A model generated the notes under the pieces. It was not told the origin of the DNA, did not search any database, and saw only the letters and a list, made by a program, of their open reading frames with translations. Source: Butyrivibrio proteoclasticus (lineage in GTDB: Bacteria; Bacillota; Clostridia; Lachnospirales; Lachnospiraceae). Taken from it: a stretch of DNA of 64,000 nucleotides. Where the stretch lies: contig NZ_FOXO01000011.1 in the NCBI RefSeq assembly GCF_900115735.1, positions 62,001-126,000 of the forward strand, given 5' to 3'. Of this stretch, positions 5,294 through 20,329 are shown in pieces (the stretch's first letter is position 1; the number at the start of each line of letters is the position of its first letter). Both the position numbers and the translations under genes were made by a program.

Positions 5294-5612
5294 ACCTGTA
5301 ACTCCTTTTATAAATAAATAGTTTCCGCATATGTAAAATAGTTTAGCACTTTTTGAGCATTATTTATGGCTTTTTATTGCTCAATTTCTATCATTTTGTG
5401 CTTAAGCGTCTTTTTTACGTGTTTGATGCAATTGTTTGAATTCTTAGATAATGCTTATTTTTTATATTGTGTACGATACATCGAATCCTTTCACACAATC
5501 TACACAAATCAAACACTATTTTTTCAATAAAAGTTTCCATAATACTAGTAATGAGTAGTATACAATTTAATTCATTTTAATTATGTACAATTTTTTAAAG
5601 GGGACTGTGTTA
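5294..5612. other. Intergenic region between divergent fsa and adhesin genes
   Basis: This stretch of about 319 bases is strongly AT-rich and contains no credible gene. It must hold the promoters of both divergent genes. A TACAAT hexamer at 5561-5566 could be a -10 box for the adhesin, but I find no convincing -35 box at the right distance. AAAGGGG at about 5598-5603 is the ribosome binding site that selects ATG 5613 for the adhesin. Confidence 0.5.
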
Positions 5613-8600
5613 ATGAAAAGTAGATTCGTAAAGGCATGTTTATGCCTTATTTTAAGTTTTAGTTTTAGTTTATTTGGTAGTAGTATCGTTACTTATGCAG
5701 AGGAAACTAATGAAATTTTTGATATTGAGAATATAGATGAGGAGAAATCTTCAAATGAAGAGAAATCTTCAAATGAGGAGAAATCTTCAAACGAGGAGAA
5801 ATCTTCAAATGAGGAGAAATCTTCAAATGAGGAGAAATCTTCAAATGAGGTTCACGATATAGAAGAGATTGATAACGAAGAGTCTGATGACGAATCCAAT
5901 GATAAGTCACAAGATATAATTCTGGATGATGATCAGGAAGTTGAAACTGAAGAAGCTGTAGATGATTCTGAGGGCAATGACTTTTTTGATGAAGTTAAGA
6001 TTGATGATGTTAATGTATCTATAAAAGCAAATGATGGTGTTATTCCAAGCGGGGCATCACTATTGGTCACAGCTGATGATAACGAAGAGGCGGCTAAAAG
6101 TATTGTTCTTACACAGTTATCAGAGGGCGTAAGTATTTCATATGCCAAGATATTTGATATAAGTATAAAAAGTGGTGAAGACAGCAATTTTCAGCCAAAT
6201 GGTGAAGTGAAAGTATATTTGGATTGCGATGATATAGAACAGGTCCTTTCCGATGAAACAAAAGAAATAAAGGTTTTCTATGTTACGGACAATTTTGATG
6301 GTGCAAAGCCTGTTGAATCCGGTATTGAAGATGGCAAGCTTTACTTTTCTCCAATGCATTTTTCTAAATATGTACTTGTTGTATTAAATAAAACTGAAAG
6401 TACTTCAAATGACGTAAATACAGGTAATGGCGATCAAGATGAGGAAAAAATTGCCATTTCTGATTTTGTTGAATCTATTAAAGTTTATGCTGATGGCCAG
6501 GAATTATCCAATGATCAGGTGGTTTCATTAAATGATACAACGTTTAGAGTTGAATACAAATTAAAGAGCAAAATTGGTGTAAATTTCCCTGACGATGAAA
6601 AATATGAAGACATTCCATATGTGAATACTGGTGATGTGTTTGTTATTCCAAAGATTGATTCTTTCTTTTCATTGACTACAGATAGTATTCCTGAAATTGT
6701 ATCTAATGGAGAAAGTTTCGCAACTTTAAATGTAGAGGATGATGGGATTCACCTTACTGTTATAGATGATAACGAAGAAAGATTTATTACAGATGCTACT
6801 TTTGGATATGCATTCAGATTTAATTCATCTAATGAGGAGATAAAAGATAAAGGAACAATTAACATAGTAATTGGTGATGTGACATATTCAGTTCTAATAG
6901 CTGAGAATCAGCCCAAAGCGCCTAAAATAACAAAAACAGGTGTTTATAACGAAAATGATGAACTTATTCACTGGACTGTAAACATTACAAATGATTCCAA
7001 TCCAATTCAGTATGAAAACGGATATAGTTTAGTTGATATATTTGATGATAAGCAGGAATATATTGTCGGGTCTTTTGAGATAAATGATGTAAATTCGGAC
7101 GAAGTTGTATTCGATTCAGAGAATAATAAGTTAAGCTACTCAATAGATAACTCTTCTGCAAATGTGGCTGGCAGAAATATTAAAGTTTCATACAACACAA
7201 AGCCCTCTTTGGATTTTTTGGAGACTTCATTTAAGAATAATAAAAGTGGTGAGAACAGTGTTACATTTACAAATAAAGCTTCACTATATGATGGAGAAAA
7301 AGAAATTGTATCCTGTGATCCTGCTTCAGTTAAAATAAATAAGAATTTTGTAACATGGGTTACAAAGGACAAAACAACAATTAATGCTGATGGTACAGCA
7401 GATTGGAAAGTAACTGTAAATACTAATGGTTACGTACTTAAAAAGCTTACTCTATATGATAAATTCAATACAGATGATAAGACATCGATGAAGCTTGTTG
7501 AGGGCAGTCTTAAGATTGATGGAAATAATGCTGATGCAAGTTTATTTTCAAGTGGAGATACTTCCTATGATTTTAGTTATTGCTTAGGAAATACAACTTC
7601 TGCAAAAACAGAATACGTTATTACATATAGAACACAAATAGAAAACTTTGATGATTTCCAAAAAGGAAATCATACTATTCCCAGCAATAAAGTATGGCTA
7701 TCCTATGAAACAACTGATGGCCAAAATGTCGAAATGATAGTTCGCCCCACTGCAGTAATTGATGGAATCAGTGCAAATGCAGGAATTGATAAAGTATACA
7801 CAAGTTATGATGCCGCAAATCATCTGATTACCTGGACTGTGACTGCTAATAAAAATAAGCAGTTATTAAATGATCCTCATATTATTGAGACACCTGGCGA
7901 AGGCCTTGAGCTTGTTGAAATAAAAAACATTATTTTAACAGATGCTGAGGATCGTACTGAGAAAATTGATGATATATCACTTGATGATCAGGAAGATTAT
8001 GATTTTAAGCTTGCCAGTCTTAGCGGCAAAACGGTTACTTTTGATGTAGTTACAAGGATTACAGATAAAACATTTTGGTCCAATAACTCAAAAAGATTTT
8101 TTAATAACAGTGTTGTTCTTAAAGGTAATGTAAGTGGAAACGATGAAGTGATTGCTGCGGATTCTGCGACTAAGGAACTAACCAGTACAGTTATTGAAAA
8201 AGAGGCAAGACCTTATAATTACATAGATCATACAATCGATTACACTATAAGTGTCAATCATAACAATATGGAAATGAAAGACACAGTTATTACTGATGAT
8301 CTTGGAACAAATGGCCTTGAACTTGTCGAAGGAACTGTAAAGCTTGGAGGCGAAAGCATTTCATCAAATGGATCTGACGGCAACAGTTATACATATAACA
8401 ATGGAACATTAGTGGTGAATCTTTCAGATATGGATGCTGATAATTCGCTGTCAGGTGCAAGAGCTGTGCTCACTTTTACTGCAAAGGTAACTGATGATAA
8501 GTTAAAATCCATTGAAAATAGTGTTGATGAAACTCTGGGATTGACTAATAAGAAATTTAAGGTTAATAATACAGCAAATATAACTTTTGATAATAACACA

Positions 8601-11411
8601 TCAGGGCAGAATGTCTCTTGTGAGACTGATATAAATCACATCGTTCTTGTCAAGGAAGGTTCATTTGATAAAACTACAGGTGTGGCTAGTTATAGAGTTT
8701 CTTATAATGGTTCTGCATTGGAAATTCCTGTAGGAACCACAATTCAGGATACACTTGGTGCTAGTTTTGTACTTGATAAAAAATCTGTTAAAGTTTATGA
8801 AGCTACAGTCGAGTCCTCTGATGGTAAACTTAATGAAACCGATAAGGAAATTGATACGGATACAGCAGTAATCAGCTTTGAAAAGACCGAAGATGATGGT
8901 AAAAGTCATGATGTCATGAAGGTTACGTTCAAAAAGCAAATTAGTGTACCAATTATAATAAAATATAATGCAGCAGTTGAGTATCCGGAATACAACGATA
9001 TTACTAATTCTGTTAGTGTCTATAGCGATACTGAGAGAACAACATCAGTTGCTAAAAAAACTATTTCATTAACAGGCTATTCTTCAGCTGGTGGATCTAG
9101 CCTTGTGAAAATTGTTGTGACAAAAGTTGATGAGGAAGACAGTTCTGTACTTTTACAGGGAGCAACATTTGTAGTTAGTAAAAATGGTAATGGTAGTGAC
9201 CCTATAGATACAATTACAACCAATAAGAAGGGTATTGCAAAATGTCTTAGTGGTCTTACTGATGGTGAAACCTATTATCTTATTGAGACTGTAGCGCCTG
9301 AAGGTTATGTACTATCAAGTGTGCCTTACAAAGTAACTATTACAAACAGAGTTGGAAATGTAAAAATTGCAAATAAAAAGATTACTACAAGTGTTTATGT
9401 AGAGCTTCAAGACACATTTGGTGAAAAACTAAATGGTGGTTCTCTTGTATTAAGAAGAGCTGAAGATAACAAAATAATTGAATTAAACGGTGATAAAGGT
9501 GAAGTTAACTATAATACTGAATATATAGTTAGCGAAGAAAAAACACCTTATGGATATAATACGGCTGAGGATGTTTCATTTAAGATTGTAAAAGAAGATG
9601 AAAAAGACGTTATTTATATTAAACAGGATAGTGAGTTTAAAAAGATTACTGATGATAAGGTGATTCTGCAAAATTCCAAAAAAGAGAATGTTGAAGTTAC
9701 GATCAATCTTGTATCCGATAGCCATAATGAGAATCTTACTGATGCAGAGTTTGTGGTTTCAATAAATGAAGATGGTCATGATCCTATATATGAATGGACA
9801 ACAACGGGAATTGATAAAAAGTTAGAGTTGACACCTGGAACGTATTATTTGGTGCAGACGAAAGTTCCTGAGGGCTTTATTACATCATCAAAGTACAAGA
9901 TTGAAGTATCTGATGGAAATAAAATATCTATATCTAAGAAAAATACTGAAACAGGTACTTATTCAGACTTGGTGGAAGATGACACGATTAGTGTAGTCAA
10001 TGAAGTTGACGTATCAAAAACGAAAGTTGTAACATTTGTGAACAAAGATACAGAAGGAGTTCTTTTAAAAGGATCATCGCTTACTGTTTCTGAAGATACA
10101 GATGAATCAAAGACATTTAAGTGTGTGGTAGCAACTGAGGTTGAGCCCAATGTTGACGAGAAAGATAAAGTTTCACTTAACTATCAAACAGCTTATACAG
10201 TTGAACAATATGTTACGCCTGAAGGATATATTACTTCTGATCCTGTAAAGTTTAAAATTAGTAATGATGGAAGTGTTTTAAAACTAGTCGATGGTGTATA
10301 TAAGCCAGATAATTCATCATCTGAAGTGTTGATTGTAAATGATAAGATTGTCGATGATGATGAAAATGAAGATAAGCCATCTGATATACCACAGTTTGGA
10401 AATGTTCCAAAGCCTGGTGATAAAGAACAGACTATAACACCTCCTGGGGATAAAGGTGATAAAGAACAGACTGAAACAAAGCCTGACAATACTGGCGATA
10501 AGGATAAGACTGAAATAAAGCCGGAAAATCCGGGCGATAAGGATAAGACTGAAATAAAGCCAGAGAATCCGGGCGATAAGAGTAAGACTGAAATTAAGCC
10601 AAAGAATCCGGGCGATAAGGATAAGACTGAAATAAAGCCAGAGAATCCGGGCGATAAGAGTAAGACTGAAATAAAGCCAGAGAATCCGGGCGATAAGAGT
10701 AAGACTGAAATTAAGCCAAAGAATCCGGGCGATAAGGATAAGACTGAAATAAAGCCAGAAAATCCGGGCGATAAGGGTAAGACTGAAATAAAGCCAGAGA
10801 ATCCGGGCGATAAGGGTAAGACTGAAATTAAGCTAGAGAATCCGGGCGATAAGGATAAGACTGAAATTAAGCCAGAGAATCCGGGCGATAAGAGTAAGAC
10901 TGAAACAAAGCCAGAGAATCCTGAAGATAAGAGTAAGATTGAACTAAAGCAAGAAAATCCGGGCGATAAGAGCAAAACTGAAATAAAGCCGGAGAATCCA
11001 GCTGACAAGGTTCAGATATCATTAATACCTGAAAATGGTAAGCCTGTAATGGATAGTGCTTCAGTTGAAAAAAATGAATTGACATCTATATTTGAGCCAT
11101 TTGGTAATGATCATCAAGAGGATTCAAAAGATGAAACAGATGATGAAGAACAGAATAGTGAAAAATCTGAAAGTAATAATACATTAGTAATTGTTTCATC
11201 TCAAAAGGATTCTTCAGAGCAGGTTGTAGAGAAGAACAATGATATTTCAGATGGTGGCGAAACAAATACGTCTCAGGGTGATGTTAATAATGCGAAAAGA
11301 CTTGCTAAAACAGGTGGATTTATTGGTACATTATTTGGTTATGCATTTGGTATTGCCTTCCTTATTGGTGGTTTGTACTTGATGTTTGGTAAGAGAAATG
11401 AGAAAAAATAA
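5613..11411 (+). CDS. Giant sortase-anchored surface protein with SpaA/Cna-B-like domains
   Basis: The start at 5613 is preferred over ATG 5583 because an AAAGGGG box lies 9-10 bases before it; this gives 1932 residues. The order is: signal peptide ending TYA (residues 1-29); six EEKSSN repeats (43-78); an acidic region; five or more beta-rich modules with W-T-V-x-x-N patterns and late SLVDIFDD / VITDDLG-type motifs (about 430-1150); four SpaA/Cna-B-like domains with E-x-x-x-P-x-G-Y motifs (about 1160-1580); thirteen 13-residue Pro-Gly-Lys repeats (1624-1792); and LAKTG (1897-1901), a hydrophobic helix and a KRNEKK tail. It should be covalently wall-anchored and act in adhesion. Many Cna-B domains carry internal isopeptide bonds. 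The sortase gene overlaps its 3' end. Confidence 0.9.
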   Translation: MKSRFVKACLCLILSFSFSLFGSSIVTYAEETNEIFDIENIDEEKSSNEEKSSNEEKSSNEEKSSNEEKSSNEEKSSNEVHDIEEIDNEESDDESNDKSQDIILDDDQEVETEEAVDDSEGNDFFDEVKIDDVNVSIKANDGVIPSGASLLVTADDNEEAAKSIVLTQLSEGVSISYAKIFDISIKSGEDSNFQPNGEVKVYLDCDDIEQVLSDETKEIKVFYVTDNFDGAKPVESGIEDGKLYFSPMHFSKYVLVVLNKTESTSNDVNTGNGDQDEEKIAISDFVESIKVYADGQELSNDQVVSLNDTTFRVEYKLKSKIGVNFPDDEKYEDIPYVNTGDVFVIPKIDSFFSLTTDSIPEIVSNGESFATLNVEDDGIHLTVIDDNEERFITDATFGYAFRFNSSNEEIKDKGTINIVIGDVTYSVLIAENQPKAPKITKTGVYNENDELIHWTVNITNDSNPIQYENGYSLVDIFDDKQEYIVGSFEINDVNSDEVVFDSENNKLSYSIDNSSANVAGRNIKVSYNTKPSLDFLETSFKNNKSGENSVTFTNKASLYDGEKEIVSCDPASVKINKNFVTWVTKDKTTINADGTADWKVTVNTNGYVLKKLTLYDKFNTDDKTSMKLVEGSLKIDGNNADASLFSSGDTSYDFSYCLGNTTSAKTEYVITYRTQIENFDDFQKGNHTIPSNKVWLSYETTDGQNVEMIVRPTAVIDGISANAGIDKVYTSYDAANHLITWTVTANKNKQLLNDPHIIETPGEGLELVEIKNIILTDAEDRTEKIDDISLDDQEDYDFKLASLSGKTVTFDVVTRITDKTFWSNNSKRFFNNSVVLKGNVSGNDEVIAADSATKELTSTVIEKEARPYNYIDHTIDYTISVNHNNMEMKDTVITDDLGTNGLELVEGTVKLGGESISSNGSDGNSYTYNNGTLVVNLSDMDADNSLSGARAVLTFTAKVTDDKLKSIENSVDETLGLTNKKFKVNNTANITFDNNTSGQNVSCETDINHIVLVKEGSFDKTTGVASYRVSYNGSALEIPVGTTIQDTLGASFVLDKKSVKVYEATVESSDGKLNETDKEIDTDTAVISFEKTEDDGKSHDVMKVTFKKQISVPIIIKYNAAVEYPEYNDITNSVSVYSDTERTTSVAKKTISLTGYSSAGGSSLVKIVVTKVDEEDSSVLLQGATFVVSKNGNGSDPIDTITTNKKGIAKCLSGLTDGETYYLIETVAPEGYVLSSVPYKVTITNRVGNVKIANKKITTSVYVELQDTFGEKLNGGSLVLRRAEDNKIIELNGDKGEVNYNTEYIVSEEKTPYGYNTAEDVSFKIVKEDEKDVIYIKQDSEFKKITDDKVILQNSKKENVEVTINLVSDSHNENLTDAEFVVSINEDGHDPIYEWTTTGIDKKLELTPGTYYLVQTKVPEGFITSSKYKIEVSDGNKISISKKNTETGTYSDLVEDDTISVVNEVDVSKTKVVTFVNKDTEGVLLKGSSLTVSEDTDESKTFKCVVATEVEPNVDEKDKVSLNYQTAYTVEQYVTPEGYITSDPVKFKISNDGSVLKLVDGVYKPDNSSSEVLIVNDKIVDDDENEDKPSDIPQFGNVPKPGDKEQTITPPGDKGDKEQTETKPDNTGDKDKTEIKPENPGDKDKTEIKPENPGDKSKTEIKPKNPGDKDKTEIKPENPGDKSKTEIKPENPGDKSKTEIKPKNPGDKDKTEIKPENPGDKGKTEIKPENPGDKGKTEIKLENPGDKDKTEIKPENPGDKSKTETKPENPEDKSKIELKQENPGDKSKTEIKPENPADKVQISLIPENGKPVMDSASVEKNELTSIFEPFGNDHQEDSKDETDDEEQNSEKSESNNTLVIVSSQKDSSEQVVEKNNDISDGGETNTSQGDVNNAKRLAKTGGFIGTLFGYAFGIAFLIGGLYLMFGKRNEKK
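5739..5846 (+). repeat. Six 18-bp tandem repeats encoding EEKSSN
   Basis: The unit GAGGAGAAATCTTCAAAT occurs six times in a row with only synonymous changes (GAA for GAG once, AAC for AAT once). It encodes an acidic, serine-rich hydrophilic spacer just after the signal peptide. Copy number is likely to vary by replication slippage. Confidence 0.95.
10482..10988 (+). repeat. Thirteen 39-bp tandem repeats encoding a PENPGDK-KTEIK wall-spanning stalk
   Basis: Exactly thirteen 39-base units in one frame encode the 13-residue pattern P-E-N-P-G-D-K-x-K-T-E-I-K, where x is D, S or G, with a partial fourteenth unit after it. A block of three units (S, then PKNPGDKD, then PENPGDK) appears twice, which points to duplication of larger segments. 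Pro-rich, charged repeats next to an LPxTG-like motif usually span the cell wall. The long open frame on the other strand here is a by-product of the repeat. Confidence 0.95.
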
Positions 11412-12009
11412 TATTAGAAAACTGTCAGGGATTGCCCTGACAGTTTTTGGAATCATAATGATATCTGCTTCAATTGCCACTAATATTTATCAATACACTA
11501 AAAAGCAGGAGATTATAGCAACTTTTGATAATACTGTGAGTCATGAAGATATTCTTTCACCAATTCAAAGTAATCAGGATATTGATGAACAAGATAATAG
11601 TGATATTTCAGAATTCTCAGCAGACTATATTTTAGAGATACCATGTATAGATTCTTTGGAACCGGTTGTAGAGGGCACGGATAGAAGTGCCTTGTCTGCA
11701 GCTCTTGGACATGAAGAATCAACTGTTTTACCCGGTGAAGTCGGTAATTGCGTAATTGCAGGCCATAGAAATTATACTTTTGGTAAATATTTTAATAGAT
11801 TAAATGAAGTTGAGATTGGCGATATGATATATATTCATACGCCTACAGACGAATACAGCTATCAAGTATCTGAAATAAAAACGGTAAGACCTGAAGATGT
11901 TGATATTCTTGAAAATACTGAGAACGAAATATTGACACTCTATACATGTACTCCAATCTATATTGCAACACATAGATTAGTTGTAGTGGCAGAAAGAGTC
12001 TATAACTAA
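11398..12009 (+). CDS. Dedicated sortase (class D-like) for the LAKTG surface protein
   Basis: From ATG 11398 the product has 203 residues; an ATG at 11386 is also in frame. An N-terminal transmembrane helix (about residues 9-30) is followed by a sortase fold with the catalytic triad: H123 in AGHRNYTFG, C184 in LYTCTP, and R193 in THRLVV. Sortases cleave between Thr and Gly of the sorting signal and join the protein to the peptidoglycan precursor. Its start overlaps the end of the adhesin gene by about 14 bases, so it is almost certainly co-expressed and specific for the unusual LAKTG signal. The TLYTCTP motif and single N-terminal anchor fit class D; the class is inference. Confidence 0.9.
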   Translation: MRKNNIRKLSGIALTVFGIIMISASIATNIYQYTKKQEIIATFDNTVSHEDILSPIQSNQDIDEQDNSDISEFSADYILEIPCIDSLEPVVEGTDRSALSAALGHEESTVLPGEVGNCVIAGHRNYTFGKYFNRLNEVEIGDMIYIHTPTDEYSYQVSEIKTVRPEDVDILENTENEILTLYTCTPIYIATHRLVVVAERVYN

Positions 12010-12073: not shown

Positions 12074-12103
12074 TTGACTTGTACGATTTAAAGCGTTAAA
12101 GTA
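12074..12103 (+). promoter_or_regulatory. Promoter and putative operator of the symporter gene
   Basis: TTGACT at 12074-12079 is a good -35 box, with a weaker TAAAGT -10 box 17 bases on (12097-12102). The stretch 12078-12095, read on the minus strand, is CGCTTTAAATCGTACAAG. It matches 17 of 18 bases of the plus-strand sequence at 18663-18680 in the acyl-CoA synthetase promoter. It covers the spacer, where a repressor would block RNA polymerase. The operator role is inference from the match. Confidence 0.6.
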
Positions 12104-12138
12104 TTAAAAGAACATATCAAACTGATTGGGAGGTTTCT

Positions 12139-13692
12139 ATGATTATTAAAGTATTGTTGCTTGTGGTGTTTTTTGCAGTGATGCTCTTTATTGGTTTTAC
12201 CTGCAGGAAAAATTCGACAGATGTTAATGGATTTGTCCTTGGTGGAAGATCTGTTGGTCCATGGGTGTCTGCTTTTGCCTATGGAACAAGTTATTTTTCT
12301 GCTGTAATTTTTGTTGGTTATGCAGGACAGTTTGGATGGAAGTACGGAATAGCTGCTACTTGGGTAGGAATTGGAAATGCTATAATAGGATCGCTTATGG
12401 CATGGTCAGTTCTTGGCAGGAGAACAAGGATCATGACACAGCATCTTAATTCTGCTACAATGCCGCAGTTCTTTGCTTCCAGATTTGGAGGATCATCACT
12501 GAAAATTGCTGCATCTGTGATCACATTTATTTTTCTTATTCCATATACAGCATCTTTATACAATGGCCTTTCAAGACTCTTTGGAATGGCATTTAATATC
12601 GACTACTCTGTTTGCGTTGTAGTTATGGCAGTTCTTACCGGAATATATGTAATTGCAGGTGGTTATATGGCTACAGCCATCAACGATTTTATCCAGGGAA
12701 TTATTATGCTCTTTGGAATATCAGCAGTAGTTATTTCTGTTCTTAACAGTCAGGGCGGATTTCTTGCATCACTTGACGGACTTGCAAGGATCTCTGATGA
12801 GTCTGTAAGTATAACTCCAGGTATTTTTGCTTCCTTCTTTGGACCGGATCCTTTGAACCTTCTCGGAGTCGTTATCCTGACATCTCTTGGAACCTGGGGA
12901 CTTCCACAGATGGTACAAAAATTCTATGCAATAAAGAGCGAGAGAGCAATCTCTAAAGGAACTATAGTTTCTACATTCTTTGCCTTCGTTGTTGCTGGTG
13001 GATGCTATTTCCTTGGCGGTTTCGGAAGACTTTTTTCAGACAGGATAGATATTGCTGCAAATGGATATGACAGCGTGGTACCTGCAATGTTATCAGGACT
13101 TCCGGATATTCTTATTGCAGTTGTAGTAGTGCTTGTTTTATCAGCTTCTATGTCCACACTTTCATCACTTGTTCTTACAAGTAGTTCAACGCTTACTCTT
13201 GACCTTTTAAAGGGCCATATTATCAAAAAGATGGATGAAAAGAAGCAGATTCTCATAATGAGATGCCTTATTGTTGTGTTTGTAGCTGTTTCAGTTATTA
13301 TAGCAATTATTCAGTACAAACAAAATGTGACTTTTATAGCTCAGCTTATGGGAGTTTCATGGGGAGCCCTTGCAGGAGCCTTTCTTGCACCTTTTTTATA
13401 TGGACTTTACTGGAAGGGGACTTCTAAAGCCGGAGTGTGGTGTAGTTTTATCTTTTCAACTGTTGTAATGCTTGCAAATATGCTTGTAAGACCAAGTTTT
13501 CCAAATCTTTTACAGTCTCCTATAAATGCCGGATCTTTTTGTATGATAGCAGGACTTGTAATAGTTCCTCTGGTTTCTTTATTTACTAAAAAGCCTGATA
13601 AAGCCTTGGTTGATAGCGCCTTTGCATGCTACAATAAGGAAGTTATGGTTCATCAGAGTACATCACTTTCTGATGAAGAAAACATAGCTTAA
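12139..13692 (+). CDS. Sodium:solute symporter (SSS family)
   Basis: This 517-residue protein has about thirteen hydrophobic segments and the SSS-family opening: an N-terminal helix, then a Gly-rich VLGGRSVGPWVSAFAYGTSYFSA segment that carries the first sodium-site helix. A second family signature, YVIAGGYMATAINDFIQG, lies in the middle. These transporters use the sodium gradient to import proline, pantothenate, acetate, phenylacetate or sugars; the substrate cannot be set from the sequence. A GGGAGG ribosome binding site precedes the ATG. Its promoter shares a nearly identical palindromic site with the acyl-CoA synthetase at 18.7 kb, so a carboxylic or arylacetic acid substrate is a reasonable guess. 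Confidence 0.85.
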   Translation: MIIKVLLLVVFFAVMLFIGFTCRKNSTDVNGFVLGGRSVGPWVSAFAYGTSYFSAVIFVGYAGQFGWKYGIAATWVGIGNAIIGSLMAWSVLGRRTRIMTQHLNSATMPQFFASRFGGSSLKIAASVITFIFLIPYTASLYNGLSRLFGMAFNIDYSVCVVVMAVLTGIYVIAGGYMATAINDFIQGIIMLFGISAVVISVLNSQGGFLASLDGLARISDESVSITPGIFASFFGPDPLNLLGVVILTSLGTWGLPQMVQKFYAIKSERAISKGTIVSTFFAFVVAGGCYFLGGFGRLFSDRIDIAANGYDSVVPAMLSGLPDILIAVVVVLVLSASMSTLSSLVLTSSSTLTLDLLKGHIIKKMDEKKQILIMRCLIVVFVAVSVIIAIIQYKQNVTFIAQLMGVSWGALAGAFLAPFLYGLYWKGTSKAGVWCSFIFSTVVMLANMLVRPSFPNLLQSPINAGSFCMIAGLVIVPLVSLFTKKPDKALVDSAFACYNKEVMVHQSTSLSDEENIA

Positions 13693-13718
13693 AACTTATT
13701 TAGGAGATTTACTTTTTT

Positions 13719-14186
13719 ATGATTAGAAGAGCAAAAGAAACAGATATTCCACGCATGATTACATTACTTAATCAGGTGCTTGAGATACATGCAAAGATAA
13801 GACCTGACATTTTTGTATCAGGCAAGACTAAGTATTCAGTAGCAGAGTTAAAAGAAATCCTGGCTGATGATAATAAGCCTGTTTACGTTTACACAGATGA
13901 AAATGATGAATGTATGGGCTATTGCTTCTGCGTTCTTAGGGGGATTCCCAAGGCAGATTTTATGGCTCCTATAAAGATTCTTTTTATTGATGATCTGTGT
14001 GTGGATGAGTCAAAAAGGGGAGATCATATAGGAAAGAAACTATTTGACCATGTTAAAGAAGAAGCTAAAAAGCTTGGATGCTATGAAGTTACTTTAAACG
14101 TCTGGGAAGGCAATGACAACGCTATTGCCTTTTATAACAGCCTTGGCATGAAGGTAAAAGAGTATCAGATGGAATTGATTTTATAA
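13719..14186 (+). CDS. GNAT-family N-acetyltransferase
   Basis: The 155-residue protein fits the GNAT fold. The acetyl-CoA binding loop appears as DESKRGDHIGKKLFDHV (about residues 95-111), after the beta strand ILFIDDLCV, and the C-terminal NVWEGNDNAIAFYNSLGMK motif is typical. The acceptor is unknown; candidates are amino groups of small molecules or protein N-termini. It starts 26 bases after the symporter and is probably co-transcribed with it. AGGAG lies about 13 bases before the ATG, a little far. Confidence 0.85.
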   Translation: MIRRAKETDIPRMITLLNQVLEIHAKIRPDIFVSGKTKYSVAELKEILADDNKPVYVYTDENDECMGYCFCVLRGIPKADFMAPIKILFIDDLCVDESKRGDHIGKKLFDHVKEEAKKLGCYEVTLNVWEGNDNAIAFYNSLGMKVKEYQMELIL

Positions 14187-14269
14187 TAGATACCTTTGTA
14201 AAAAGAGCTGACGAGGCTTTATACAATGCAAAAAAAACCGGAAGAAATAAAGTAGTATTTGCAAAATGA
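14186..14269 (+). pseudogene. Remnant of a GGDEF-domain C-terminus
   Basis: Reading from 14186 in a frame different from the GNAT gene gives IDTFVKRADEALYNAKKTGR, then NKVVFAK and a stop. That is the classic final helix of diguanylate cyclase GGDEF domains (consensus like L-x-x-A-D-x-A-L-Y-x-A-K-x-x-G-R-N). There is no start codon, no ribosome binding site and no catalytic loop, so this is a broken leftover of about 27 codons. A terminator follows. It probably marks where a larger gene was deleted or replaced. Confidence 0.75.
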
Positions 14270-14276
14270 CATAAAT

Positions 14277-14309
14277 AAACCCTCTGGCCAAATGGTCAGA
14301 GGGTTTGTC
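14277..14309. terminator. Bidirectional intrinsic terminator
   Basis: AAACCCTCTGGCC pairs with GGTCAGAGGGTTT around an AAAT loop, with A-rich and T-rich flanks. It lies between the GNAT/GGDEF remnant and the convergent ACT gene and serves both. Confidence 0.9.
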
Positions 14310-14311
14310 TT

Positions 14312-14746
14312 TTAGATGTTTGCAATATCTTCCTGTGAAAGGAGCTTTAATCCTTTTCCTGTAAGTTTTGCTTCAGCAGCCTTTGTATCAGCAACTCTGA
14401 AGATCATGTAAGCGTGGTTGGAAGAACCTCTTCCGGGAAATGCATACATATACTCGATGTTAACAGATGCATCGGCAAAAACTTCCAAAAGCTTATCAAG
14501 TCCACCTGCCTCATCAGGAATCTCAACTGCAAGAACTGAAGTAAGGCTTGCGACGAAGTCATTTTCTTTTAAAGTATTTACAGCTTCTAAAGCGTCATCA
14601 ACGATTATACGGGCAATTCCAAAATCCTTGGTCTCAGCAAGGGAAGTGGCACGCATATCTATGTTGTTTTTGGCCATTACGCTTGTGAGCTTTTTTAATG
14701 TGCCGGGTTTATTTTCAAGGAAAACTGATATCTGTTTTATACTCAT
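14312..14746 (-). CDS. Double ACT-domain amino-acid-binding regulatory protein
   Basis: The 144-residue protein consists of two ACT modules. The first begins KQISVFLENKPGTLKKLTSVMAKNNIDMRA (about residues 3-32), and the second begins about residue 72 with the AVEIPDEAGGLDKLLEVF pattern. ACT domains bind amino acids and switch partner activity. Proteins of this type are commonly encoded next to indolepyruvate oxidoreductase and phenylacetate-CoA ligase genes, as here. An AGGAGG box precedes the ATG. It lies 69 bases downstream of the ligase gene and could share its transcript. A role in sensing aromatic amino acids is inference from context. Confidence 0.85.
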   Translation of the reverse strand: MSIKQISVFLENKPGTLKKLTSVMAKNNIDMRATSLAETKDFGIARIIVDDALEAVNTLKENDFVASLTSVLAVEIPDEAGGLDKLLEVFADASVNIEYMYAFPGRGSSNHAYMIFRVADTKAAEAKLTGKGLKLLSQEDIANI

Positions 14747-14815
14747 GATAGAATCCTCCTATATTTCTAGTATAGAATAATTTTTGAATAAATACTGCAA
14801 AAATATAGATAAAAC

Positions 14816-16117
14816 TCAGATTTTTCTCTTATCGATAACTCTTACGGCTTTTCCTTCGCTTCTTGCAATTGACTTTGGTGCAAGGAGAGAGATCCTTACC
14901 TTGATTCCAAGCATTGAGTACATATCTGTAGCAAGTTTTTTCTGACGTTCCTCGATTTCACCGACATTATCTGTGAACATCTCAGGTGTCATTTCTACCT
15001 GAACATCAAGAGAGTCAGTGTTGTTGGCTCTGTCAACAACTATCTGGTAGTTTGCAGCATATCCATTGTTCAAAAGAACTGTTTCAATCTGGCTCGGGAA
15101 TACATTTACACCTCTTACTATAAGCATGTCGTCTGAGCGGCCCATTGGTTTAGCCATTTTGATGAATGTTCTTCCACAGGAGCACTTGCCTCTTGTAAGT
15201 TTGCAGATATCTCTCGTGCGATAGCGAAGCATTGGGAAAGCTTCTTTATCTACGGCTGTAAATACCAGCTCGCCCTGTGAACCTTCAGGAAGCACTTCCT
15301 CAGTGTCAGGATCGATGATTTCTGCAATGAAGTGGTCCTCATTTATGTGCATACCGTTTTGTTCACAGCATTCAAAGGCAACTCCGGGACCTGAAAGCTC
15401 TGTAAGACCATAAATATCATAGGCTTTGATTCCTAAAGTGGATTCTATTTCCTGACGCATTTCTTCACTCCAGGCCTCTGCACCAAAGATTCCTGCCTTA
15501 AGAGGAATATCTTCAGGCTTGTAGCCTTCTTCTTTGAAACGCTCTGAGATATATGCAGCATAACTTGGTGTGCAGCAGAGGATAGTGGCCTTAAGGTCAT
15601 TTATAAACATCATCTGTCTGTCAGTGTTGCCGGAGCTTATCGGAACTGTAAGGCAACCAACTTTATGAGAGCCACCGTTAAGGCCGGCGCCGCCTGTAAA
15701 GAGACCAAAACCATATGCAATCTGGCAAATATCCTCGTTAGTTCCACCGGCAGCCATGATAGCTCTTGCGCAGCAGTCTTCCCAAAGATCAATGTCATGC
15801 TGTGTATAGAAAGCGACAACTCTTTTTCCTGTTGTTCCGGAAGTTGAGTGGATTCTTACGCAGTCCTTCATTGGAGCACCAAGAAGTCCTGTCGGATAAG
15901 CATCTCTTAGATCTTTTTTTGACAAAAATGGTAGCTTATGTAGGTCGTCAACTGACTTTATATCATCGGGAGTAACGCCTTTTTCCTCCATTTTTTTCCT
16001 GTAGTAAGGGACGTTATCCCAAACTCTTTTTACCTGCTTTACAAGCTTTTCACTCTGAATCTTTTTTATTTCTTCATAAGGTGCTGTTTCAATTTCTTTC
16101 TGAAAATATTGCTCCAT
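14816..16117 (-). CDS. paaK: Phenylacetate-CoA ligase (aryl acid-CoA ligase)
   Basis: The ATG at 16117 is chosen over 16138 because GGGGAG lies about 8 bases before it, giving 433 residues. The protein is a class I adenylate-forming enzyme of the PaaK group. It has the phosphate-binding loop HSTSGTTGKR (about residues 92-101), an IYGLTELSGPG motif that binds adenine, a YRTRDI segment and a C-terminal domain with the hinge GRSDDMLIVRGVNVFPSQIE. It activates phenylacetate or indoleacetate with ATP and CoA; run backwards it would release the acid from its CoA ester. It follows iorB by 27 bases in one operon, which links it to arylacetyl-CoA made or used by IorAB. Confidence 0.92.
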   Translation of the reverse strand: MEQYFQKEIETAPYEEIKKIQSEKLVKQVKRVWDNVPYYRKKMEEKGVTPDDIKSVDDLHKLPFLSKKDLRDAYPTGLLGAPMKDCVRIHSTSGTTGKRVVAFYTQHDIDLWEDCCARAIMAAGGTNEDICQIAYGFGLFTGGAGLNGGSHKVGCLTVPISSGNTDRQMMFINDLKATILCCTPSYAAYISERFKEEGYKPEDIPLKAGIFGAEAWSEEMRQEIESTLGIKAYDIYGLTELSGPGVAFECCEQNGMHINEDHFIAEIIDPDTEEVLPEGSQGELVFTAVDKEAFPMLRYRTRDICKLTRGKCSCGRTFIKMAKPMGRSDDMLIVRGVNVFPSQIETVLLNNGYAANYQIVVDRANNTDSLDVQVEMTPEMFTDNVGEIEERQKKLATDMYSMLGIKVRISLLAPKSIARSEGKAVRVIDKRKI

Positions 16118-16144
16118 ATCTTTTTCTCCCCAAAACAATTCTTA

Positions 16145-16720
16145 TTATGCGAAGTTTTTGCCAAGCTCGAAAGCTTTTTTATTCATATCGAGGAATTTGG
16201 CAGGTACATTGGCTTCAAGGCTCTTCATCCATTCATCTTCAGGAAGATCGAAGTAGTGTGAGAGTCTTCCAAGTAAAACAATATTTACAGCCTTTGAGGA
16301 ACCGGCCTTTTCTGCAAGAGTAAGGCAGTCGAGAGCATCCACCTTTGCACCTGTAGATCTAATCTTATCAATAATATTTTCAGGATATTCAGCTGCTCCT
16401 GTAATTACCGGCATAGGATCTATCTGCTGAGTGTTTGTGACGATCTGTCCATCCTTTTTAAGGTATGGAAGCCATCTTGCAGCTTCTAAAGCTTCAAAGG
16501 AAACAATGTAATCAGCCTGACCTTTATCGATGACAGGAGAGAAGACTTTATCGCCGTACCTTACATAAGTTACAACACTTCCTCCTCGCTGGCTCATGCC
16601 GTGTACCTCAGAAACTTTTACATCAAATCCCTGAGCCATTAAAAGATGTCCTAAAAGTTTGCTGGCAAGAAGTGAACCCTGTCCGCCTACACCAACGATC
16701 ATAATATTTTTAGTTTCCAT
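16145..16720 (-). CDS. iorB: Indolepyruvate:ferredoxin oxidoreductase, beta subunit
   Basis: Start 16720 is selected by an AAGGAGG box just upstream, giving 191 residues. The protein is the gamma-type domain of 2-oxoacid:ferredoxin oxidoreductases: the N-terminal NIMIVGVGGQGSLLASKLLG (about residues 4-23) and the EVHGMSQRGGSVVTYVRYG segment (about 40-58) are diagnostic. With IorA it interconverts arylpyruvates and arylacetyl-CoA using CoA and ferredoxin. It starts four bases after the iorA stop codon and is translationally linked to it. Confidence 0.93.
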   Translation of the reverse strand: METKNIMIVGVGGQGSLLASKLLGHLLMAQGFDVKVSEVHGMSQRGGSVVTYVRYGDKVFSPVIDKGQADYIVSFEALEAARWLPYLKKDGQIVTNTQQIDPMPVITGAAEYPENIIDKIRSTGAKVDALDCLTLAEKAGSSKAVNIVLLGRLSHYFDLPEDEWMKSLEANVPAKFLDMNKKAFELGKNFA

Positions 16721-16724
16721 TGTT

Positions 16725-18479
16725 TCAAGCCTCCTTTTCCGGAGCATTAAAGGCTCCAACCGGACAGAGCTGGCTACATACATTGCAGCCTACACACAGT
16801 GTTGTATCAATTCTGGCCTGTCCATCTTTCATGGAAATTGCAGGGCATCCAATTCTCATACAGGATTTGCAGCCCACACATTTATTCTTATCCACGCTAA
16901 GAGGAGGATTGTGTTTTACGTATTTTAACAGTGCACAAGGGCGTCTTGATATTATTACGGAAGGAGCGTCCGCAGAGAGTTCTTCCTTGAGGACTTTATC
17001 ACATTCTTCAAGATCATAAGGATCAACTACGCGAACTCTTTCAAAGCCCATAGCTCTGCAAAGGGCTTCAAGATCGATCTTTCCTGCAGGGTCACCTTTT
17101 ATGTTGTAGCCGGTTGTAGGATTTTGCTGGTGACCAGTCATTCCGGTGATGGAATTGTCGACAATTATGATAGTTGAGTTTGACTGGTTATAAGCAACGT
17201 TTGCAAGACCTGTCATTCCTGAATGCATAAATGTAGAATCACCGATAACAGCAACAGTTTTGTGCTCACTTTCGGCACCTCTTACTTTGTTAAAGCCATG
17301 GAGCGCGCCAATTGAAGCTCCCATACAAAGAGTCATTTCAATTGCACCAAGAGGTGGAACGGCGCCTAATGTATAGCATCCAATATCGCCTAAAACAGTG
17401 CAGTTATTCTTTTTAAGGGTATAGAAGAGTCCTCTGTGAGGGCAGCCTGCACACATAACAGGCGGACGATTAGGAATCTCGGCATCAAGGGCAAAAGAGT
17501 TCTCGACTTCTTTTCCGAATTTCTGTGCAATGAGGTTCTGTGAAAATTCATCAACGATTGGTAGAAGCTCTTTTCCTGTTACTTCAATTCCAAGAGCTTT
17601 TACATGATTTTCAATGATAGGATCAAGTTCTTCTACAACAAAGAGCTTCTCAAACTTTGCAGCAAAGTCCTTTATAAGCTTTTCAGGAAGAGGATTGGTC
17701 ATACCAAGCTTAAGAACGCTTACGGAGTCTCCAAAAACCTCTTTTACATACTGGTAAGAAGTTGAACAGGTAATGATACCTATCTTTGTATCACCCATTT
17801 CAACTCTGTTGAGAGGACTCTCTTCAGCATAAGAAATAAGGTCTTTAGTTCTCTGCTCAACGATAGGATGGCGCTTTTTGGCATTGCCCGGCATCATTAC
17901 GTATTTTGCGATATTTTTTTCGTATGGCTTATCGGGAACAGTTCTTTCGCCTGTACTTACGAGAGACTGAGAGTGTGCAACTCTTGTGCACATTTTTAAA
18001 AGAACAGGAGTGTCAAATTTTTCAGAAATTTCATATGCAAGCTTTGTGTATTCAAGGGCTTCGCTTGAATCAGAAGGCTCGATCATAGGAACTTTGGCAG
18101 CGATAGCGTGGTGTCTTGAATCCTGCTCGTTTTGAGATGAATGCATCCCTGCGTCATCAGCAACTACGATCACGAGACCTGCATTAACTCCTGTGTAAGA
18201 CATTGTGTAAAGTGGATCTGCAGCCACATTAAGACCAACGTGTTTCTGAGCGCAGAAAGCTCTTTTTCCTGCAAGTGATGCGCCGAAAGCAGATTCCATA
18301 GCCACCTTTTCATTAGGAGCCCATTCACAGTATATATCATCATATTTTGCAGCTTCTTCAGTTACCTCTGTACTTGGAGTACCGGGATAGCTGGAAATGA
18401 AGCATACTCCGGCTTCATATAATCCCCGGGCAACAGCCTTGTTGCCAAGCATGAGCTGTTTGCCATTGTTTTTGCTCAT
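16725..18479 (-). CDS. iorA: Indolepyruvate:ferredoxin oxidoreductase, alpha subunit
   Basis: The 584-residue subunit has the pyrimidine-binding domain at the N-terminus (GNKAVARGLYEAGV, SSYPGTPSTEV) and then the thiamine diphosphate domain. That domain carries a cysteine-rich CAGCPHRG loop, GDIGCYTLG, and the Mg/ThDP-binding GDSTF...N series at about residues 415-445. The C-terminus holds two 4Fe-4S ferredoxin motifs, CVGCKSCMRIGCP and CVGCNVCSQLCP. It oxidatively decarboxylates indolepyruvate, phenylpyruvate or hydroxyphenylpyruvate to the CoA ester, or runs reductively to make the arylpyruvate. AGGAGG precedes the ATG. It is first in the iorA-iorB-paaK operon, and a putative operator lies 60-80 bases upstream. 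Confidence 0.95.
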   Translation of the reverse strand: MSKNNGKQLMLGNKAVARGLYEAGVCFISSYPGTPSTEVTEEAAKYDDIYCEWAPNEKVAMESAFGASLAGKRAFCAQKHVGLNVAADPLYTMSYTGVNAGLVIVVADDAGMHSSQNEQDSRHHAIAAKVPMIEPSDSSEALEYTKLAYEISEKFDTPVLLKMCTRVAHSQSLVSTGERTVPDKPYEKNIAKYVMMPGNAKKRHPIVEQRTKDLISYAEESPLNRVEMGDTKIGIITCSTSYQYVKEVFGDSVSVLKLGMTNPLPEKLIKDFAAKFEKLFVVEELDPIIENHVKALGIEVTGKELLPIVDEFSQNLIAQKFGKEVENSFALDAEIPNRPPVMCAGCPHRGLFYTLKKNNCTVLGDIGCYTLGAVPPLGAIEMTLCMGASIGALHGFNKVRGAESEHKTVAVIGDSTFMHSGMTGLANVAYNQSNSTIIIVDNSITGMTGHQQNPTTGYNIKGDPAGKIDLEALCRAMGFERVRVVDPYDLEECDKVLKEELSADAPSVIISRRPCALLKYVKHNPPLSVDKNKCVGCKSCMRIGCPAISMKDGQARIDTTLCVGCNVCSQLCPVGAFNAPEKEA

Positions 18480-18514
18480 TTATAATCCTCCTACCTTCTT
18501 GAATATTTCGCACA

Positions 18515-18557
18515 ATTATATAAAACAGATATTGTTCTGATTTAAAGTGATAAAGTG
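18515..18557 (-). promoter_or_regulatory. Putative iorA promoter with degenerate operator
   Basis: On the minus strand TATAAT (18520-18515) is a good -10 box for iorA, but the -35 region is poor. Just upstream, plus-strand TGATTTAAAGTG (18538-18549) resembles the CG-TTTAAA-CG core of the two sites at 12084 and 18663, differing at both flanking CG pairs. The spacing places it over the -35 region. This site is weaker evidence than the other two. Confidence 0.4.
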
Positions 18558-18624
18558 CATATACAATTAGGATAATAAAAATAAAAAAATAAATCAAGGA
18601 TGAAATAATCGAACTTCACTTGTA

Positions 18625-18680
18625 TTGACCTTTTTAGCAAATGTCTTTATAATTAACTTTAGCGCTTTAAAGCGTACAAG
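18625..18680 (+). promoter_or_regulatory. Promoter and palindromic operator of the acyl-CoA synthetase gene
   Basis: TTGACC (18625-18630), a 17-base spacer and a perfect TATAAT (18648-18653) form a strong sigma-70-type promoter. Immediately downstream, covering the expected start point, is the perfect 12-bp palindrome CGCTTTAAAGCG (18663-18674). The 18 bases from 18663 match the minus-strand site in the symporter promoter at 17 positions. A repressor bound here would block initiation. Confidence 0.75.
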
Positions 18681-18694
18681 AAGGGGATTACAAT

Positions 18695-20329
18695 ATGCCG
18701 ATTACAGATTTACTAGAAAGAAACAGCAAACTTTATGGGGAAGAGGTTGCTCTTGTGGAGATAAATCCTGAAATAAAAGAAGAGCAGCGAGTAACATGGA
18801 AGGAATATGAGCTTATTCAGCCCACAAGTACTTCCTATTACAGAAGACAGATCACATGGTCTGTATTTGATGAAAAAGCTAACAGAGTAGCCAATATGCT
18901 CATGGAAAGAGGCATAAAAAAAGGACAGAAGTGCGCTATCTTGCTTATGAACTGTCTCGAATGGCTGCCTATATACTTTGGAATATTAAAATGCGGAGCT
19001 GTAGCTGTTCCGCTTAATTTCAGATTTACATCTGAAGAAATTGATTATTGCCTTAAAGCTTCTGATTCTGATGTCCTTTTCTACGGACCAGAGTTCATCG
19101 GAAGAATCGAGGATATTGCTGAAAAGTTGAAGAAGGAGATGCTTCTTTACTATGTTGGAGACCAGTGTCCATCCTATGCTGAGGATTATTACAAGCAGGT
19201 TTCAAACTCATCTTCAACAGCGCCAAGAGTCCTGATTGAAGATAAGGATGATGCAGCGATATATTTTTCCTCAGGAACTACAGGATTTCCTAAGGCAATT
19301 TTGCATATACACACTGCACTTATGCAGTCTGCCAAAATGGAAGCAATACATCATGAGACGACACATGATGACAATTTCCTCTGCATTCCGCCGCTCTATC
19401 ATACAGGAGCCAAAATGCACTGGTTTGGATCACTATATACAGGAAGCAGAGCAGTTCTTTTGAAGGGCAATTCACCGGAAGCGATATTTAGAGCAGTTTC
19501 TGAAGAACACTGCACAATTGTATGGCTTCTTGTTCCGTGGGCGCAGGATATTCTTGCTGCACTTGATAGCGGAAAGCTTAAGATGGAAGATTACAAATTA
19601 AGTCAGTGGCGTCTGATGCACATAGGTGCTCAGCCGATTCCACCAAGTCTTGTTCGCCATTGGCTTCAGTATTTTCCTCATCATAAGTATGATACCAACT
19701 ATGGCCTTTCAGAATCAACAGGCCCAGGCTGCGTGCATCTTGGAATGGAAAATGTCCATAAGGTAGGCGCCATAGGTGTTCCAGGTTATGGCTGGAAGAC
19801 CAAGATAGTAGATGAAGAAGGAAATCCTGTTAAGCAGGGCGAAATCGGAGAGCTTTGTGTCAAAGGTCCGGGGGTTATGGTCTGCTATTATAAAAATCCT
19901 GAAGCAACAGCTGAAATCCTTAAAAACGGATGGCTCTTTACCGGTGATATGGCTCGTCAGGATGAGGATGGCTTTATATTCCTTGTTGACCGTAAAAAGG
20001 ACGTTATTATTTCGGGTGGTGAGAATTTGTACCCTGTTCAGATTGAGAGCTTCCTGATGAAAAATGACAAGATTCACGACGCCGCTGTTATAGGTCTTCC
20101 TGATCAGCGTCTTGGTGAAATTGCTGCTGCAATTATCCAGGTGAAAGAGGGAATGACTCTTACTGAGGAAGATGTAGATGCTTTCTGTGTTGACCTTCCA
20201 AGATATAAAAGACCAAGAAAAATTATTTTTGACAAAGTAATCAGAAATGCTACCGGCAAGATTGATAAGCCTAAGCTCAGACTAAAGTATTGCGGCGATC
20301 ATCTTGTAGAAAAGCAAAATCAGGGATGA
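18695..20329 (+). CDS. AMP-binding acyl-CoA synthetase
   Basis: This 544-residue adenylate-forming enzyme has the P-loop YFSSGTTGFPKAI (about residues 190-202), a YGLSEST motif that closes the adenine pocket, the hinge region GWLFTGDMARQDEDGF and the DRKKDVIISGGENLYPVQIE linker (about 435-455). The catalytic lysine lies in the C-terminal NATGKIDKPKLR. It joins a carboxylic acid to CoA through an acyl-AMP. The family includes medium-chain, aromatic and alicyclic acid ligases, so the substrate is open. It is transcribed alone, divergently from the ior operon, from a strong promoter with an operator shared with the symporter, which suggests an aryl or alkanoic acid substrate. Confidence 0.85.
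   Translation: MPITDLLERNSKLYGEEVALVEINPEIKEEQRVTWKEYELIQPTSTSYYRRQITWSVFDEKANRVANMLMERGIKKGQKCAILLMNCLEWLPIYFGILKCGAVAVPLNFRFTSEEIDYCLKASDSDVLFYGPEFIGRIEDIAEKLKKEMLLYYVGDQCPSYAEDYYKQVSNSSSTAPRVLIEDKDDAAIYFSSGTTGFPKAILHIHTALMQSAKMEAIHHETTHDDNFLCIPPLYHTGAKMHWFGSLYTGSRAVLLKGNSPEAIFRAVSEEHCTIVWLLVPWAQDILAALDSGKLKMEDYKLSQWRLMHIGAQPIPPSLVRHWLQYFPHHKYDTNYGLSESTGPGCVHLGMENVHKVGAIGVPGYGWKTKIVDEEGNPVKQGEIGELCVKGPGVMVCYYKNPEATAEILKNGWLFTGDMARQDEDGFIFLVDRKKDVIISGGENLYPVQIESFLMKNDKIHDAAVIGLPDQRLGEIAAAIIQVKEGMTLTEEDVDAFCVDLPRYKRPRKIIFDKVIRNATGKIDKPKLRLKYCGDHLVEKQNQG

Follow-up and report, generated by a model that had tools for sequence, protein, structure and literature searches.

We analysed a 64,000-nucleotide stretch of the Butyrivibrio proteoclasticus genome (contig NZ_FOXO01000011.1, positions 62,001 to 126,000), referred to here as the window, in which near-identical palindromes lie in the promoter regions of a sodium:solute symporter gene and of acs, the gene for an AMP-forming acyl-CoA synthetase, with a weaker copy in front of iorA, which encodes the alpha subunit of an indolepyruvate ferredoxin oxidoreductase (Ior). 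The sequence evidence strongly indicates that these sites are operators of the TrpR family. The reading that we favour, and hold to be probable, is that a TrpR-family repressor governs a module for aromatic amino-acid supply, with HisR itself probably acting in Butyrivibrio. A regulator had been postulated, and not named, in an earlier sequence-only reading of the window; the evidence assembled below points to a TrpR-family, HisR-like protein.

Probable operators upstream of the symporter, acs and iorA

The sequence-only reading had drawn attention to two 18-mers, at 12095-12078 on the minus strand and 18663-18680 on the plus strand, which are indeed identical at 17 of 18 bases. Their likeness proved to be longer, with 22 of 24 bases identical between 12078-12101 and 18657-18680. 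The 24-mers of site A (CTTTAACGCTTTAAATCGTACAAG, 12101-12078) and site B (CTTTAGCGCTTTAAAGCGTACAAG, 18657-18680) are both imperfect palindromes, and their consensus, CTTTAACGCTTTAAAGCGTTAAAG, comprises two TTTA-N6-TAAA palindromes, the second displaced from the first by 8 bp. Site A is prolonged by one further half-site at an 8-bp step, giving an operator A of 12078..12109, and operator B (18657..18680) lies across the expected acs transcription start. The third site, which had been placed at 18538-18549, is real and has a counterpart in nearly all relatives examined, although its limits had to be redrawn to 18532-18555 (TTGTTCTGATTTAAAGTGATAAAG). This operator C (18532..18555) is weaker, retains a single intact TTTA-N6-TAAA core and is situated 52 bp upstream of the iorA start. 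None of the three operators is assigned a strand.

When the 18-mer was searched for with up to three mismatches, four matches were found in the window against 0.10 expected from dinucleotide shuffles, the four being sites A and B, each matched again on the other strand with a shift of 6 bp. This upheld the earlier contention that such a near-match is not expected by chance in 64 kb. The 24-bp pattern CTTNNNCGCTTTAAANCGNNNAAG, with at most one mismatch, recovered sites A and B only in the whole 4.17-Mb genome. Words such as TTTAAA and TAAA are frequent in AT-rich promoters, and the likeness of the sites might be ascribed to this alone; however, given the number of matches over expectation and the retention of the sites in relatives, an origin by chance has next to no probability, and conservation refutes it. 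The matching sites are probably genuine switches. The spacing of TAAAG/CTTTA words on the same strand, counted from 5 to 24 bp, also peaked at 8 bp upstream of the symporter (30 pairs) and of acs (46 pairs); with these exact words the peak was not seen before the binding-protein genes described below.

Conservation within Butyrivibrio

A seed position weight matrix (PWM) placed 59 of 60 symporter upstreams of the genus above the 99% shuffle level, in a test that is partly circular, as its ten sites were pattern matches from these same genomes. A refined PWM was positive for the upstream region of the symporter in 59 of 60 cases, of acs in 36 of 40 and of the binding protein in 19 of 20, counts that are descriptive since the matrix was trained on its own test sets. 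The acs set represents 40 of 62 matches, and the binding-protein set is composed of 18 orthologs and two distant paralogs. At 27 of the 40 acs loci, acs and iorA are seen to diverge; a site scoring at least 11 lies within 110 bp before iorA in 26 of these 27, the PWM having taken at most one (the best) site per acs-iorA stretch. The motif is rare genome-wide and conserved before orthologous genes, and neither the random scatter nor the lack of conservation that the sequence-only reading had named as telling against its proposal was encountered. Isolated matches with one mismatch in L015, L022, L023, L033, L036 and L041 were set aside as not fitting the regulon.

In some Butyrivibrio genomes without the symporter, the operator instead precedes a gene for an ABC binding protein of family PF04392. 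Counting the symporter at 60% identity or above and the binding protein at 46% or above, 58 of 79 genus genomes had the symporter only, 16 the binding protein only, two both and three (incomplete genomes) neither. The binding protein falls within PF04392 and stays below the cut-off of the TrpX model NF041285 (293.9 bits, cut-off 390); by sequence it resembles those of the HisXYZ/TrpXYZ kind.

HisR as the candidate regulator

The published HisR consensus, cacTTTAnnnnnnTAAAgtg (PMC9413887), has TTTA-N6-TAAA at its core. At least 11 of the 14 bases of the printed consensus, CACTTTA-N6-TAAAGTG, were present upstream of the symporter in 51 of 60 cases, of acs in 32 of 40 and of the binding protein in 15 of 18, for which shuffles gave expectations of 1.8, 1.6 and 0.9, respectively. 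The same limit was reached in 19 of 20 hisZ upstreams (0.1 expected), in all nine hisR upstreams (0.2) and in 28 of 29 distinct upstreams of aroG (0.8), a gene treated in the next section; the hisR set consists of the nine out of ten fetched loci that yielded a start by the pattern used, and hisZ and hisG were identified by TIGR00443 and TIGR00070, both over cut-off. The hisZ upstreams (L187-L206) show a his operon promoter with up to four half-sites at 8-bp steps, the four in L191 being TTAGCATG, GTAGCACG, TTACCATA and GTAAAGTG.

Exactly one TrpR-family gene over cut-off was found in 75 of the 79 genus genomes, and two in none. The protein encoded in the genome under study is of the YerC/YecD type (TIGR02531, 144.5 bits, cut-off 42.2) and has 3FRW and 3G1C as close relatives; its gene lies near a hisA-like gene, and against the E. 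coli-type TrpR model TIGR01321 it scored 23.3 bits (cut-off 67.25). Because the genus has one TrpR-family protein, and this is of the HisR (YerC) type, HisR itself probably serves the Butyrivibrio operators, and on sequence grounds it is the likely regulator protein. The earlier statement that the window holds no regulator gene stands for the TrpR family, other regulator families not having been looked for there.

Further targets in the B. proteoclasticus genome

Searching the genome with the pattern at three mismatches led to CTATAGCACTTTAAACTGTAAAAG, which has a PWM score of 25.1 and lies 45 bp before a gene for 3-deoxy-D-arabino-heptulosonate 7-phosphate (DAHP) synthase (aroG; TIGR00034, 269.6 bits, cut-off 173.2). 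DAHP synthase catalyses the entry step of aromatic amino-acid synthesis. The site recurred in 29 of 30 loci, none of which had been used in PWM training, with L397 as the exception; these loci are the best-matching 30 of the 70 genomes with the gene.

Three weaker sites were also seen in this genome. One with a score of 17.7 (L403:2932-2955, contig C31) lies about 50 bp before the gene of a pyridoxal phosphate-dependent aminotransferase (NF005305 over cut-off), an enzyme that possibly performs the last step from arylpyruvate to amino acid; the site itself could be due to chance. Another, with a score of 14.6 (L404:2961-2984, contig C43), lies across the start of a gene for a sodium-dependent transporter (NF037979) and is probably a chance match, and the third (L405; score 11.0) is upstream of ilvE. 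Since a few such scores are expected per whole genome, as extrapolated from shuffles, all three are leads only.

Gene clusters, paralogs and T-boxes in other genera

From named genomes of other genera we collected 80 symporter homologs with their flanks. In L238, L245, L255 and L264 the genes acs, symporter, iorA, iorB, paaK and that of the ACT protein form a single operon in one direction. The motif was present before the symporter, acs or iorA at the 99% shuffle level in 37 of 50 genomes, 33 of them at a score of at least 11. This conservation in the genus and in other families, together with the single operon of some genera, supports the proposal of the sequence-only reading that one shared regulator controls the symporter, acs and ior.

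A TrpR-family gene was found in 45 of the 50 genomes, and 21 had two or three copies. Twenty of the 25 extra copies were examined with their flanks. In 16 of these 20 loci the second TrpR-family gene adjoins iorA, acs, paaK or the symporter gene, often standing directly before iorA; the copies of L328, L332, L336 and L342 lie away from the cluster. Those of L332 and L336 represent a third, divergent TrpR-family gene. Across the 224,174 bases of these loci, all 21 motif matches with a score of at least 11 fell within 250 bp upstream of a TrpR-family gene, acs, iorA, paaK or the symporter gene, and the upstream stretches holding all of them amount to 5.7% of the bases. A match was present in 13 of the 20 loci overall and in 12 of the 16 that are cluster-linked. 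By genome, the motif occurred in 19 of 21 with at least two TrpR-family genes and in 18 of 29 with fewer (p = 0.02, relatedness ignored).

In a tree of 39 TrpR-family proteins, in which many branches are long and weak, 11 cluster-linked copies formed one group (support 98/98) separate from HisR. L330, L338 and the non-cluster copy of L328 joined this group with lower support, and L340 and L341 were placed elsewhere, so that the recruitment of a TrpR-family paralog may have occurred twice. In another set of upstreams (L343-L361; an example is L357:1335-1374), TTAAAG-like half-sites recur every 8 bp in arrays that exceed 24 bp, in front of genes for ABC binding proteins of another family.

A regulator from outside the TrpR family could be envisaged as reading the Butyrivibrio operators, their likeness to HisR sites then being convergent. 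The genus has no dedicated paralog, and the genomes of L250 and L277 have a strong site and no TrpR-family match, as this explanation would allow. It is nonetheless unlikely to be correct, as in other genera the motif is found at the promoters of TrpR-family genes and of the genes next to them, and in Butyrivibrio six sets of upstreams agree with the HisR consensus.

Rfam models were run on 32 of the 80 symporter loci, mostly chosen for having no clear site before the symporter. Three gave T-boxes (RF00230, gathering threshold 93), located before acs in L255 (113.1 bits) and L278 (109.4 bits) and before the symporter in L284 (111.5 bits), and none of the three has the motif within 300 bp. The specifier codon of a T-box follows GAA, and by this rule the codons are UUC (phenylalanine) in L255 and UAC (tyrosine) in L278 and L284. 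No T-box was detected in 30 binding-protein loci of other genomes or nine short Butyrivibrio binding-protein upstreams, nor in 16 further symporter loci with flanks of only 1.5 kb or in five Butyrivibrio stretches. An acs-symporter locus, L251, has a TwoAYGGAY RNA (1972-2134, 82.3 bits) shortly upstream of acs, a candidate for RNA control of the acs and symporter genes.

The T-boxes bear on what the genes are for. Because T-box and TrpR-type control act on shortage, the genes most likely supply phenylalanine or tyrosine (perhaps tryptophan), and IorAB would run reductively. The best-known role of IorAB is oxidative, in the fermentation of aromatic amino acids, and the enzyme might likewise serve breakdown here, oxidising towards arylacetate for energy while the symporter moves substrates or products. 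We regard this as an improbable account, since T-box and TrpR control turn genes on at scarcity, the opposite of what breakdown needs, and since DAHP synthase has the operator in common.

A histidine regulon was also considered, in which HisR with histidine would control a histidine carrier, the symporter, and an imidazoleacetate-to-histidine route made up of acs, the PaaK-like ligase and Ior. Its main support is that symporter and PF04392 binding protein share the operator and are nearly exclusive, where the PF04392 protein may be the HisR-controlled hisXYZ carrier of PMC9413887; the sole TrpR-family protein of the genus is, moreover, HisR-like. The exclusivity may, however, be the outcome of one clade event, three relatives have tyrosine or phenylalanine T-boxes in front of the genes, and DAHP synthase has before it the best additional site seen in the B. 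proteoclasticus genome. We judge such a regulon doubtful, if worth retaining. That two histidine carriers, binding protein and symporter, are the whole story became less likely after the T-boxes and the DAHP synthase site, and this version was kept as a rival only.

Proposed control of aromatic amino-acid supply

The sites, their conservation, the gene neighbourhoods, the T-boxes and the single TrpR-family gene of the genus genomes are present in the sequence; from them we infer protein binding, its ligand, repression, the direction of Ior and the substrate transported. Given the 8-bp offset of its two palindromes, each 24-mer could accommodate two adjacent dimers of a TrpR-family repressor. 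When carrying its co-repressor amino acid, the repressor would lie over the spacer and -10 of the symporter promoter, and the same protein would cover the acs start site and the region directly upstream of iorA, so that repression would set in when the amino acid is plentiful. The symporter would take up arylacetates, the acyl-CoA synthetase or PaaK-like ligase would convert them to arylacetyl-CoA, and IorAB would reductively carboxylate arylacetyl-CoA to arylpyruvate. DAHP synthase, under the same operator, would serve the shikimate route. In many Clostridia a cluster-encoded TrpR-family paralog would take the repressor's part, and in three relatives a tyrosine or phenylalanine T-box in front of the genes would do so instead. 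Arylacetate salvage is, on this evidence, the likely purpose of the module.

Several observations weigh against TrpR-family control as proposed. Butyrivibrio lacks the dedicated paralog of the cluster type, and control of aromatic genes by a protein that senses histidine would be odd physiology. The 20-bp HisR consensus with up to three mismatches was not enriched across the window (five found, 5.6 expected), three of the five being operators A, B and C. That a PWM trained on hisZ and hisR sites puts these three operators at the top of the window speaks for the proposal, but the test is partly circular because the training sites were chosen by motif-like patterns. Four of the 16 cluster-linked TrpR-family loci (L326, L327, L330 and L339) have no site; the threshold score of 11 was chosen after earlier results had been seen, and some loci (L324, L325, L331) are near-copies. 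Lastly, among the 50 genomes the motif occurred in 35 of 45 with a TrpR-family gene and in two of five without, a difference that is not significant (p = 0.10).

In its broadest form the proposal could equally well turn out right or wrong. It would hold that gut and rumen Clostridia have a common module of a Na+ symporter, two CoA ligases, IorAB and an ACT protein, which turns arylacetates into phenylalanine, tyrosine or tryptophan and is switched on at amino-acid shortage by interchangeable means, namely a cluster paralog, a tyrosine or phenylalanine T-box or, in Butyrivibrio, HisR, linking histidine and aromatic supply through tandem operators shifted by 8 bp.

Promoters and genes of the window

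The sequence-only reading had called both promoters good. This held for the acs promoter (TTGACC-17-TATAAT, 18625..18653, plus strand), which agrees with the sigma-70 consensus at 11 of 12 bases. The symporter promoter (TTGACT-17-TAAAGT, 12074..12102, plus strand) agrees at nine of 12 and is no better than shuffles (one found, 0.8 expected), a weak call taken alone. The positions of the sites relative to these promoters were as described earlier, site B just past the -10 and site A occupying the spacer; more exactly, site B begins three bases past the -10, and site A stretches from where the -35 ends as far as the -10, which it also covers.

The symporter gene (12139..13692, plus strand) encodes a sodium:solute symporter family protein (PF00474, 188.2 bits, cut-off 22.8); none of the ten NCBIfam models listed for it reached its cut-off, and the protein would carry an arylacetate or an aromatic amino acid. 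A GNAT acetyltransferase gene (13719..14186, plus strand) starts 26 bp after it in the same direction and is perhaps co-transcribed with it. The ior gene row on the minus strand consists of iorA (16725..18479; TIGR03336, 723.8 bits, cut-off 650.9), iorB for the beta subunit (16145..16783; NF005325, 283.7 bits, cut-off 230), a phenylacetate-CoA ligase-like gene (14816..16138) and, at its end, a gene for a double ACT-domain protein (14312..14746; PF19571). The true iorB start may be internal to its open reading frame. The ligase is called PaaK-like only, because its best model, TIGR02155, gave 521.4 bits against a cut-off of 646.3. The acs gene (18695..20329, plus strand) belongs to PF00501. Elsewhere in the window, 5583-11411 encodes a surface-type protein of 1942 amino acids with a repeated ENPGDKxKTEIKP stretch, and is followed by a small gene (11386-12009) that appears sortase-like by eye.

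Comparison with known systems

A regulon that joins DAHP synthase to the sodium:solute symporter, CoA ligases and IorAB would provide named candidate genes for the conversion of phenylacetate to phenylalanine in the rumen. With it the HisR/TrpR family would reach beyond histidine, to aromatic amino acids; on this one gene set, three kinds of control (repressor, paralog and T-box) seem mutually replaceable. Literature searches, which left subscription journals largely outside their scope and did not query PaaK, returned no link of TrpR-family or HisR proteins to ior, or of T-boxes to indolepyruvate.

TrpR of E. coli binds palindromic sites, with tandem dimers 8 bp apart, and has a DAHP synthase gene among its targets. 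The present system is similar in its TrpR-family protein, its palindromes, their 8-bp tandem arrangement and its DAHP synthase target. It differs in the sequence of the half-site, and the protein is only distantly alike, falling below the TIGR01321 cut-off.

HisR (YerC/YecD) has been described as a TrpR-family repressor (Ashniev et al. 2022, PMC9413887), and that of R. gnavus bound its own site with histidine (PMC9413887). Table 2 of that paper gives his genes, hisXYZ, yuiF and hisR as targets, as well as tdcP-tdcA-tyrT in four Lactobacillales genomes, and has Butyrivibrio under the his operon and hisR. The core TTTA-N6-TAAA, the protein family and the genus sites before hisZ and hisR are shared with this regulon. 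In contrast, the main text of PMC9413887 contains none of the words indolepyruvate, iorA, aroG and DAHP, and it uses tandem only for codons and T-boxes. The same paper reports HisR2 paralogs with tdcP-tdcA-tyrT (tyrosine/tyramine) in Enterococcus and Carnobacterium, and mentions an Oscillibacter HisR paralog adjoining histidine-use genes. The HisR2 case resembles ours in that a HisR paralog adjoins aromatic amino-acid genes and has a HisR-like site; bacteria and genes are different, the present paralog adjoining ior, acs, paaK or the symporter gene.

An aryl-acid route to aromatic amino acids with an Ior-type oxidoreductase is on record for Methanococcus (Porat 2004, cited in PMC4162585), and rumen cultures are reported to have made phenylalanine from phenylacetate (Allison 1965, cited in PMC7356843). 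For rumen Clostridia, the account of this conversion in PMC7356843 names no genes, carrier or control. The module proposed here is alike in having arylacetates as precursors of aromatic amino acids and, in the Methanococcus case, in its Ior-type oxidoreductase. Unlike the accounts in PMC4162585 and PMC7356843, in which no regulator or carrier is named, the Clostridia cluster adds putative candidates for both.

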